From: Coriobacteriia bacterium
Lineage (GTDB): Bacteria > Actinomycetota > Coriobacteriia > Coriobacteriales > Eggerthellaceae
DNA: 64,000 nt
Assembly: GCA_030530215.1 (NCBI GenBank)
Contig: JAUMVJ010000002.1
Span: forward strand, 124,001 to 188,000
Direction of reading: 5' to 3'
Part shown: positions 35,176 to 37,831 of the stretch, piece by piece
How the letters are laid out: each line of letters opens with the position of its first letter
Numbering within the stretch: position 1 is the stretch's first letter
Notes under the pieces: model-generated
The model's database searches: none
Told to the model about the DNA's origin: nothing
The model's input: the letters and a program-made list of their open reading frames with translations, nothing else
Position numbers and translations under genes: made by a program

Positions 35176-35556
35176 TTAGAGCCCCATGAGGCTCGTGGTG
35201 GCGGCAAAACCGATGGCTGCAGCGCCGAGCGTGCCTAGATAGGTGGTGGCGAGGTAGGCGATGCCAGTTTTGGCACGTCCCTGCGTAAGGTGATCCACCG
35301 CTTCGCAGTTCATCGTCGAGAGGGTGGAGAAGCCCCCAAGGAAGCCCATGCTCAAAACCGCGAAGGCAAGCGCTCCCATCGCACTGGACGCGGCAAGTGC
35401 GCAGCCTGCGATAGTGCAGGCGCAGAGGTTGATAGCGAGCGTGGGCCAGGGGAACTCGCTCGCGGATTTGCGCTTCATGAAAGAAGACGCCTTATGCCTG
35501 CAAAGGGCGCCAAGGGCTCCTCCTACGCCCACAAGGACGAGGGTCAGAAGGTTCAT
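35176..35556 (-). CDS. crcB: CrcB/Fluc fluoride channel, second of pair
   Basis: Small four-helix membrane protein of the fluoride channel family, with the conserved GFLGGFSTLSTMNCE block. Start ATG 35556 overlaps the TGA of the upstream crcB gene (ATGA), which is why the longer open frame to 35619 was rejected. Paired CrcB proteins can form heterodimeric dual-topology channels; net charge bias between the two could set opposite topologies. About 126 residues, normal length. Confidence 0.9.
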   Translation of the reverse strand: MNLLTLVLVGVGGALGALCRHKASSFMKRKSASEFPWPTLAINLCACTIAGCALAASSAMGALAFAVLSMGFLGGFSTLSTMNCEAVDHLTQGRAKTGIAYLATTYLGTLGAAAIGFAATTSLMGL

Positions 35557-36002
35557 CTCTGCACCTTCTTGCGCTCGGCACGCCGCCCCAGCATGTCTGC
35601 CACCAACTTGCCCGCCCATGCGGCGGCAAGGGTTGTTACGGCGGTAGCTCCCAGGTAAAGAGCGAATGTTGGGTAGAGGCCTTGCTGCAGGAACGAAAGG
35701 CTCTCGACGGAGAACGCGGACACCGTGGTGAAGGCGCCGATTAGGCCGATGCCCATGGACTTCACGAGCGGCGTGGGAAGCATGCTTCGTTGCGCGATGT
35801 GGAGGTTGATGATCCCGAGCGTGAAGCAGCCGAAAATATTGACGGCAAGCGTTGCCGTGGGGAAGCCGCCGCCTGCGGGCAAGAGCATTTCCAGGATGTA
35901 GCGCAGGCTTGCACCGATAAAGCCCATGAGCAGCACAAGGGGTGTGAGCGAGTGGGGATTGCGCAGCGCATCCTTTAGGGCATCGGTTGTATTTCTTGGC
36001 AT
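35553..36002 (-). CDS. crcB: CrcB/Fluc fluoride channel, first of pair
   Basis: A 149-residue membrane protein with GFIGASLRYILEM, the Asn in LAVNIFGCFTLG and the channel motif GLIGAFTTVSAFSVES. It is the first gene of a two-gene crcB unit and exports fluoride passively from the cytoplasm. The 84 bases upstream were compared with the fluoride riboswitch consensus and no match was seen. The glycosylase-Vsr gene lies directly upstream on the same strand, so read-through from it is possible. Confidence 0.9.
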   Translation of the reverse strand: MPRNTTDALKDALRNPHSLTPLVLLMGFIGASLRYILEMLLPAGGGFPTATLAVNIFGCFTLGIINLHIAQRSMLPTPLVKSMGIGLIGAFTTVSAFSVESLSFLQQGLYPTFALYLGATAVTTLAAAWAGKLVADMLGRRAERKKVQR

Positions 36003-36086: not shown

Positions 36087-37160
36087 CTAAGCTTCCGCTA
36101 AGGGCTTGTCCAATTCTTCTGCAAGTTGAGGGAAGAGTTCGGCCAGGGTGGTGTCCAGTTTGTTCTTTTTCAGCTGGCACTCCCATATCACGTGGACACG
36201 CCAACCCATGGCCTCAAGCGTCGCCAGGTTTTCTGCGTCGCGCTCGATGTTGCGGGCGAATTTGGCCTCCCAGTAGTCGACGTTCTTTTTCGGCACGCTG
36301 GGCTTGCAGTGCGGGCAGCGGTGCCAGTAGCAACCGCGTACCTCGATGGCGACCTTCTTTGATGGCCAGGCGATGTCGGGATGCCCCGGTACCTTCCACT
36401 GCAGGCGGTAGCCCCCAAGCCCCGCTTCGCGCAGTTTTTGGCGTACCAGAAGCTCGGGCTTGGTGTCTTTTCGGTTGTTGCCCTGCATGCTTTTGTGCAC
36501 GGCGTAGCTTGATGCCGGTGGGGCAGGGATGCGCACGCTTGCGTACTCGACGGTGCCGGCGGGCTTTGCTGCGCGGGCGGGCGCTGCCTTTTCAAGCATG
36601 CCTTCGCTTGCTGCTTTGAGGAGCGGGGTTATTTCTTCACGCCAGCGCTTGCTTAGGCGATCAAGCTGCCAGGCGGCGTTTGCGGGGCTGGTGGACGGCA
36701 GCACGCAGGCATCAAGGCCGACTTGCCACTGCAAGTACTTTTGGTAGAGCCTCCCCGCCGTGCTTCCGTTGCAGACAACGGCGCCGATGGGCGCAGTTTC
36801 AAGGATGCGCTCGATTTGCGCAGGCACCACATTTTTAATGCTTGCGTCGCTTGATCCTTTGATGTCGCAGGATTCGATGACATCCCATAGGGCAATGCCG
36901 TGGGCAAGCAGAAGCTCCTCTTTGGCAGTGATTGATTGTTCCAAGCTTGCAGCTTTGCCTTCGAGAGGGTCGCCTTCGTTGGGCGGCACGGGAGCGTCCA
37001 GGCAGCCTGCCAGAACCTGCCAGAAGCGGTTATGCGGGTTGCCATAGTAAAAGGCGTTTTTGCGCGACTGCACTGAAGGGAACGAGCCCAAAATCAAGAT
37101 GCGAGAATTCTCGTCGAACACGGGATCGAAGCCGTGTGATATGTGCCGGTACTTTGCCAT
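36087..37160 (-). CDS. DNA-deoxyinosine glycosylase (family 6 UDG superfamily) fused to Vsr endonuclease
   Basis: Residues 1 to about 170 form a hypoxanthine/deaminated-base glycosylase: ILILGSFPSVQSR, FYYGNPHNRFW and the late motif LPSTSPANA match the family 6 deoxyinosine glycosylases. After a linker of about 45 residues, residues ~216-350 form a complete Vsr very-short-patch nuclease: RKDTKPELLVRQKL (catalytic Glu), GHPDIAWP (Asp), EVRGCYWHRC (His and zinc ligands), NIERD and WRVHVIWECQ (zinc Cys). Vsr nicks 5' of T in T:G mismatches made by 5-methylcytosine deamination. The fusion joins two deamination-repair activities in one chain. No cytosine methyltransferase is nearby. No good ribosome site precedes ATG 37160. 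Confidence 0.88.
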   Translation of the reverse strand: MAKYRHISHGFDPVFDENSRILILGSFPSVQSRKNAFYYGNPHNRFWQVLAGCLDAPVPPNEGDPLEGKAASLEQSITAKEELLLAHGIALWDVIESCDIKGSSDASIKNVVPAQIERILETAPIGAVVCNGSTAGRLYQKYLQWQVGLDACVLPSTSPANAAWQLDRLSKRWREEITPLLKAASEGMLEKAAPARAAKPAGTVEYASVRIPAPPASSYAVHKSMQGNNRKDTKPELLVRQKLREAGLGGYRLQWKVPGHPDIAWPSKKVAIEVRGCYWHRCPHCKPSVPKKNVDYWEAKFARNIERDAENLATLEAMGWRVHVIWECQLKKNKLDTTLAELFPQLAEELDKPLAEA

Positions 37161-37252: not shown

Positions 37253-37732
37253 TTATTTTTCTTGGATTTGCTTGCCGGTAAGGTGCTCGATGTCCATCAC
37301 GTAGAGGAACATGCCTTTGGCGGACTGGGTGATCACCTTATCGATCTCTTCGTCGTTTGGATAGTGCTTGCGTGCCATGTGTCGCACACCTTCGCTTGCT
37401 TGCTCTAAATCGTCGACAAGGGAGCAGCGCCCGAAGGCGACGGCGCTTTGAACATAGGGCGCCCACGCCTGCGCGGCATCGATGTGCTCATTTCCGTATA
37501 CCGCGAAGCACACTTTGTCCGAGTGTTTCAGCACATCGACCTTATGACCCGCCTTGGACCCATGGAAATAGATTTTGTTCGCCTGCGCATCGTAGAGGTA
37601 GTTGATGGGGAAGGCATACGGGTAGCCGTCGTCGCCGTTAACGGCCAGCACGCCACGGCGTTCTTTGCGAAGAAGCTCCTTGGCGGCTTCCTCGGATATG
37701 GTGCGGTCTTTTCTTCTTATGGGTCTGAACAT
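37253..37732 (-). CDS. Pyridoxamine 5'-phosphate oxidase-fold flavoprotein (NimA-like)
   Basis: A 159-residue FMN-binding split-barrel protein. The N-terminus MFRPIRRKDRTISEEAAKELL followed by GVLAVNGDDGYPYAFPINYLYD and IYFHGSKAGHKVD is typical of the Nim-like group, some of which reduce nitro-compounds. ATG 37732 has AAAGGA at correct spacing, whereas ATG 37738 would sit directly on that site. It is followed downstream by nothing on the same strand until the glycosylase-Vsr gene. Substrate unknown; nitroimidazole resistance should not be assumed. Confidence 0.82.
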   Translation of the reverse strand: MFRPIRRKDRTISEEAAKELLRKERRGVLAVNGDDGYPYAFPINYLYDAQANKIYFHGSKAGHKVDVLKHSDKVCFAVYGNEHIDAAQAWAPYVQSAVAFGRCSLVDDLEQASEGVRHMARKHYPNDEEIDKVITQSAKGMFLYVMDIEHLTGKQIQEK

Positions 37733-37831
37733 GGCCATCCTTTCGTGCTTTGCGAGGGTTCATCGAGTCCACTCCGTCACGGCGGGCGGGGTTTTGCTGG
37801 CTTTTGCTTAGGACAAGAGCGGGTGCAGATT

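Follow-up and report, generated by a model that had tools for sequence, protein, structure and literature searches.

A DNA glycosylase–Vsr endonuclease fusion in Coriobacteriia as a candidate two-enzyme protein of mutation avoidance

A family 6 hypoxanthine (deoxyinosine) DNA glycosylase (HDG) and a Vsr endonuclease are joined in one chain of 357 residues in a gut bacterium of the class Coriobacteriia, a combination of known enzymes in a new variant arrangement. The gene lies on the minus strand at positions 36087–37160 of the window (the whole 64,000-nt stretch of DNA that was analysed) as a single open frame with an ATG start at 37160. The one chain, the intact domains, the conserved residues, purifying selection, recurrence of the fusion and the absence of MutS and MutL from sampled relatives are directly seen; we infer the two enzyme activities, the relaxed demand on sequence context and whatever advantage the tether may bring. 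Our preferred reading of the sequence, to which we assign a probability of roughly 0.55, is that this is an inherited two-enzyme protein on a flexible tether that would work in mutation avoidance, with HDG acting on deaminated adenine and Vsr on T:G mismatches in relaxed context.

As expected from its family, the HDG half would flip out and excise hypoxanthine, which arises when adenine is deaminated, and the resulting abasic site would pass to the AP endonuclease of the cell. At T:G mismatches, the Vsr half would nick on the 5′ side of the T, after which DNA polymerase and ligase would replace a short patch. The two activities most likely operate in parallel on different lesions of deamination or replication, and not one after the other at the same lesion, and as tethered enzymes they would share DNA binding, dosage or location.

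The preliminary description of this DNA had recognized a single chain with a family 6 glycosylase and a complete Vsr domain, and both points hold: the exact open frame was recovered, and each half is identified by profile matches and by its predicted fold. Residues 10–173 (36642–37133, minus strand) match the TIGR04274 DNA-deoxyinosine glycosylase profile over its full length with 122.4 bits (cut-off 80), and also PF03167 with 39.8 bits (cut-off 24.3). The modeled structure of this half matches the HDG-like 2l3f (Z 17.2), with MUG and TDG at Z 12–14, and has the UDG-superfamily fold. The motifs GSFPS (residues 25–29), YYGNPHNRFW (38–47) and LPSTSPANA (154–162) are present, and we take GSFPS and PSTSPANA to be motifs 1 and 2 of the family 6 HDGs. 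Hypoxanthine is described as the predominant substrate of family 6 (PMC10776899), and the HDG half would be expected to excise it.

The Vsr domain spans residues 222–329 (36174–36497, minus strand). Residues 223–281 match the PF03852 Vsr profile with 47.4 bits (cut-off 27), and the whole domain scores 95.8 bits against TIGR00632, slightly below a cut-off of 97.85 that is passed by two of the three other fusion members scanned. In the model, this half matches the E. coli Vsr structures 1cw0 (Z 12.4) and 1vsr (Z 11.9). When 85 Vsr domains were aligned with the E. coli enzyme, the active site and wedge fell at 36231–36461 on the minus strand; the wedge residues (M14, W68 and W86) and the zinc-site residues are assigned the roles they have in the E. 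coli structure. The catalytic residues listed for Vsr are E25, D51, H69 and D97 (PMC12907096), and these four, together with the three wedge residues, are kept in all 85 domains, the window's included. With E. coli numbers in brackets, the window protein has E236 (E25), D262 (D51), C277 (C66), Y278/W279 (F67/W68), H280 (H69), C285 (C73), W297 (W86) and D308 (D97).

Variation is evident next to this conserved set, where E273–V274–R275 stands in place of F62–T63–H64 of E. coli Vsr. Position 64 is mostly Asn among the 85 domains and the usual 62/64 pair is F/N or F/H; Glu62 and Arg64 occur only together, in eight domains including that of the window (codons 36342–36344 and 36336–36338), so that the two positions change as a pair from the more usual Phe and Asn. 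The window thus carries Arg275 where a His64 might be sought, but we do not treat His64 as defining Vsr because functional Vsr enzymes with another residue there are known (PMC12907096). Functional Neisseria enzymes are without it, and V.NgoAXIII nicks T:G whatever the surrounding sequence (PMC12907096, PMC6116569). The broader mismatch range suggested in the preliminary description, and with it a window Vsr relaxed in sequence context, is plausible by analogy with V.NgoAXIII insofar as His64 is replaced in both; the comparison is an analogy and not a test because the window has Arg at this position and V.NgoAXIII has Asp. The E273/R275 pair in the active site could also lower activity.

In the AlphaFold2 model (mean pLDDT 80), the two folded domains are separated by a disordered linker at residues 197–232 (36465–36572, minus strand; pLDDT <50), which extends into the beginning of the region matched by the Vsr profile. 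No Shine–Dalgarno-like sequence precedes the in-frame ATG or GTG codons of the window's linker region, and a scan for internal starts in another fusion member gave one match, weak and badly spaced. A separate Vsr made from a start within the linker was set aside but is still conceivable, and the annotated start of the window gene has no obvious Shine–Dalgarno sequence either. Scans of the locus for promoters and terminators returned no match above chance. An origin from a phage or plasmid was considered and set aside: none of the phage or plasmid records matches the protein over 80% of its length, and viral contigs gave no confirmed relatives.

The genes around the fusion are a pyridoxamine-phosphate-oxidase-like (PNPOx-like) flavoprotein gene upstream on the same strand (37253–37738, minus strand; PF12900), a TetR gene and tandem CrcB fluoride channel genes downstream, again on the same strand (35176–36002, minus strand; PF02537). 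We regard them as context and not as part of the proposed device. None of the adjoining genes encodes a C5 methyltransferase, as had been noted earlier. A PNPOx-like gene also adjoins Vsr at several other loci (among L157, L158, L253, L262, L263, L270 and L278) and is fused to it in genome G040.

The same HDG–Vsr order is found in nine genomes, the window's included, which represent five genera and two families. Four of these proteins have no third domain (the window genome, G014, G029 and G341) and five carry a GIY-YIG domain as well (G055, G056, G095, G096 and G097), the last being split over contigs with the glycosylase at the end of one and Vsr–GIY-YIG at the start of another. The GIY-YIG nuclease domain lies behind HDG–Vsr, giving a three-enzyme protein (L102, L103, L104, L107 and L108). 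An assembly error that joined two genes, which the preliminary description itself named as grounds for refutation, is excluded in practice because eight other genomes carry the same fusion. Elsewhere in the phylum, no HDG–Vsr fusion was found among the 296 genomes sampled, and matches outside the class cover only one half or the other. No GIY-YIG match was found elsewhere in the window genome, a result that is uninformative given that UvrC should match too and the assembly is incomplete. In the open-access literature searched we found no description of a Vsr fusion, or of Vsr in Coriobacteriia, so the other ground it named, many described proteins of this architecture, was not encountered there, and the architecture appears to be undescribed in that literature.

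Both halves are under purifying selection. Between genera, dN/dS is well below 1 for each (dN 0.15–0.27, dS 0.63–2.9), with dS near saturation. The linker is not conserved in length and ranges from 24 to 128 residues across the fusion proteins. In trees of the separate halves, the fused proteins fall together to one side of a branch, supported at 78/95 for Vsr and 72/81 for HDG, both below the strict threshold; an HDG tree built earlier from a different set of sequences required two changes. These placements are consistent with one fusion event. The HDG half clusters with HDGs of Coriobacteriaceae (99/94) and the Vsr half with Vsrs that come chiefly from the Eggerthellaceae, to which the window belongs (97/95). 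The gene may therefore be chimeric, combining a resident Vsr with an HDG that was acquired or retained differently. Although G341 is from a different family, its fusion is nested within the other fused proteins, with the HDG half grouping with those of G014 and G029 (100/95), and this nesting suggests transfer.

MutS scored above cut-off in none of 60 genomes of the family and none of 119 genomes of the class, MutL (PF01119) was found in none of the 119, the window's own assembly being incomplete, and the family sample yielded short partial matches to NucS but no full-length copy. These absences agree with a published survey in which every coriobacterium analysed was without NucS and without MutS–MutL (PMC5290159).

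Vsr is also joined to other partners in these bacteria. Among 160 Vsr loci surveyed, 121 are solo, 26 encode MutT–Vsr, nine belong to the HDG–Vsr group and one each encodes AlkA-like–Vsr, PNPOx–Vsr, GNAT–Vsr and Vsr–YbaK; the loci were taken from sequence matches and relatives are over-counted, so these counts are not frequencies of independent events. MutT–Vsr (L075, L079, L080, L086, L090, L184–L187, L195, L196 and L202–L221) accounts for 26 of 28 loci in the family that includes Collinsella and Enorma, the exceptions (G238 and G336) both belonging to one genus, and the Vsr tree supports one origin (99/96). The Nudix half scores 90, slightly below the MutT cut-off of 97.9, and for that reason an 8-oxo-dGTP activity would be only a guess. 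A second, unrelated glycosylase–Vsr fusion links an AlkA-like HhH-GPD DNA glycosylase to Vsr (L183:2640–3866, plus strand; genome G227). Further Vsr domains are joined to a PNPOx-like flavoprotein, a GNAT acetyltransferase and a YbaK-type tRNA editing domain (L157, L160 and L161). HDG has a partner of its own in several Eggerthellaceae, where it is fused to YjeF_N, an NAD(P)H-hydrate epimerase (L140:5163–6917, minus strand; L163–L171 and L173), with no evident functional link.

The closest rivals to the tethered pair are an incidental fusion and an ordinary Vsr that serves an unlinked methyltransferase. In the former, loss of a stop codon between neighboring repair genes would have joined two domains that remain independent, and the join would have no functional meaning. 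Fusion does arise without evident meaning in this clade, as the unrelated Vsr partners and HDG–YjeF_N show, and the disordered linker of variable length fits such an origin. Because HDG and Vsr also join non-repair partners (PNPOx, GNAT, YbaK and YjeF_N), the mere fact of fusion says little for a joint function. The Vsr partners taken together are less easily explained in this way: MutT-like Nudix, AlkA-like HhH-GPD glycosylase and GIY-YIG nuclease partners support a role in mutation avoidance, and of seven partner types four are repair or nucleotide-sanitation enzymes and three are not, an outcome (four or more repair-linked) with a probability of about 3e-5 to 2e-4 if a base rate of 3–5% and independence of the seven are assumed. 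HDG–Vsr and MutT–Vsr also persist over several genera, and we consider an incidental origin possible but rather unlikely. We give still less credence to a relay on a single lesion, in which Vsr would incise the site from which HDG has removed the base. The two domains do share a chain and the abasic product of HDG needs incision, and the preliminary description had tentatively proposed that the glycosylase recognizes the damage and the nuclease processes it. That sequence of events is unsupported because the primary substrates of HDG and Vsr differ, those known for Vsr being T:G mismatches and not abasic sites, and because a disordered linker of varying length does not suggest a geometric hand-over; moreover, HDG and Vsr are separate genes in most genomes of the family.

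Ordinary very-short-patch repair would have the Vsr half guard the 5-methylcytosine sites of a distant C5 methyltransferase that was missed in the 64%-complete assembly. No PF00145 match was found in the window genome, a weak absence because the assembly is 63.6% complete. Of 296 Coriobacteriia genomes, 200 have a Vsr match, almost always a single one; Vsr and PF00145 occur together in 138, Vsr alone in 62, the methyltransferase alone in 21 and neither in 75, a class-wide association (odds ratio 7.9, p 1.7e-14) that is uncorrected for relatedness or genome size. Outside the window's order, each of the 25 genomes with Vsr carries a methyltransferase; among the nine fusion genomes, five encode such an enzyme at some locus (G341 has none); and in Caulobacter VsrA pairs with an unlinked methyltransferase (PMC12907096). 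On the other side, the association is weak inside the window's own family (p 0.097), and the 62 Vsr-positive genomes without PF00145 include single-contig ones (G050, G051, G052, G068, G101 and G136). A C5 methyltransferase lies near Vsr at five of 85 loci examined and no methyltransferase is close by at the other 80, so that the earlier statement that Vsr normally adjoins such an enzyme fails in this clade; many of the loci adjoin what we name from sequence a pyruvate:ferredoxin oxidoreductase gene. Vsr is decoupled from the methyltransferase in the window's order and, given the 25 genomes outside it, not class-wide, and "orphan" understates the case for a Vsr that in Coriobacteriia is usually a single gene. 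We hold a conventional role beside a distant methyltransferase to be doubtful for the window protein. It is improbable, finally, that the E-x-R variant has lost or changed activity and acts solely to bind DNA on behalf of the glycosylase. The replacement of F62/H64 by E273/R275, as a pair that is never mixed, would fit such a change, but every other catalytic residue and the zinc-site cysteines are kept, fusion members G055, G056 and G014 carry the usual F-V-N or F-I-H, and E-x-R resembles the general PD-(D/E)XK motif.

Under the two-enzyme reading, HDG–Vsr-type fusions would be natural examples of two tethered DNA-repair enzymes. Coriobacteriia include common gut bacteria and are reported to be without both known mismatch-repair systems (PMC5290159). 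For a share of the missing repair, a testable candidate is a Vsr that is widespread, often methyltransferase-free and repeatedly fused to enzymes of mutation avoidance. More tentatively, and as a proposal we think rather unlikely, T:G (transition) mismatches in the class could be handled by a separate route that is uncoupled from cytosine methylation and centred on a relaxed-specificity Vsr, which would repeatedly have been built into multi-enzyme mutation-avoidance proteins (HDG–Vsr, HDG–Vsr–GIY-YIG, MutT–Vsr and AlkA–Vsr).

Comparison with known systems places the protein among enzymes it resembles only in part. NucS/EndoMS of Actinobacteria and Archaea is likewise a mismatch endonuclease, one that substitutes for MutS–MutL (PMC5290159), but it belongs to another family, has no full-length copy in the sampled Eggerthellaceae and is reported absent from Coriobacteriia (PMC5290159). 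VsrA of Caulobacter crescentus is a Vsr-like gene unlinked to its methyltransferase and has H64 replaced (PMC12907096); unlike the window protein, it has a known functional methyltransferase partner, ScmA, and contains DUF559, and no fusion of it has been described. V.NgoAXIII of Neisseria gonorrhoeae is a Vsr without His64 that acts on T:G in all contexts (PMC6116569, PMC12907096), but it has Asp at position 64 where the window has Arg, is unfused and works with MutL. With E. coli Vsr (V.EcoKDcm; 1cw0, 1vsr) the window protein shares the fold, E25/D51/H69/D97, the intercalating M14/W68/W86 and the zinc-site C66, C73 and C117; it differs in having V-R for T63-H64, E for F62 and Cys for H71, and in being fused behind a glycosylase without an adjoining dcm, in a class where MutL was not found in a sample of 119 genomes. 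The glycosylase half finds its counterparts in the family 6 HDG of Methanosarcina barkeri and in M. acetivorans 2l3f, with which it shares the TIGR04274 family and the predicted fold (Z 17.2 and 31% identity to 2l3f), whereas those enzymes are single-domain proteins.
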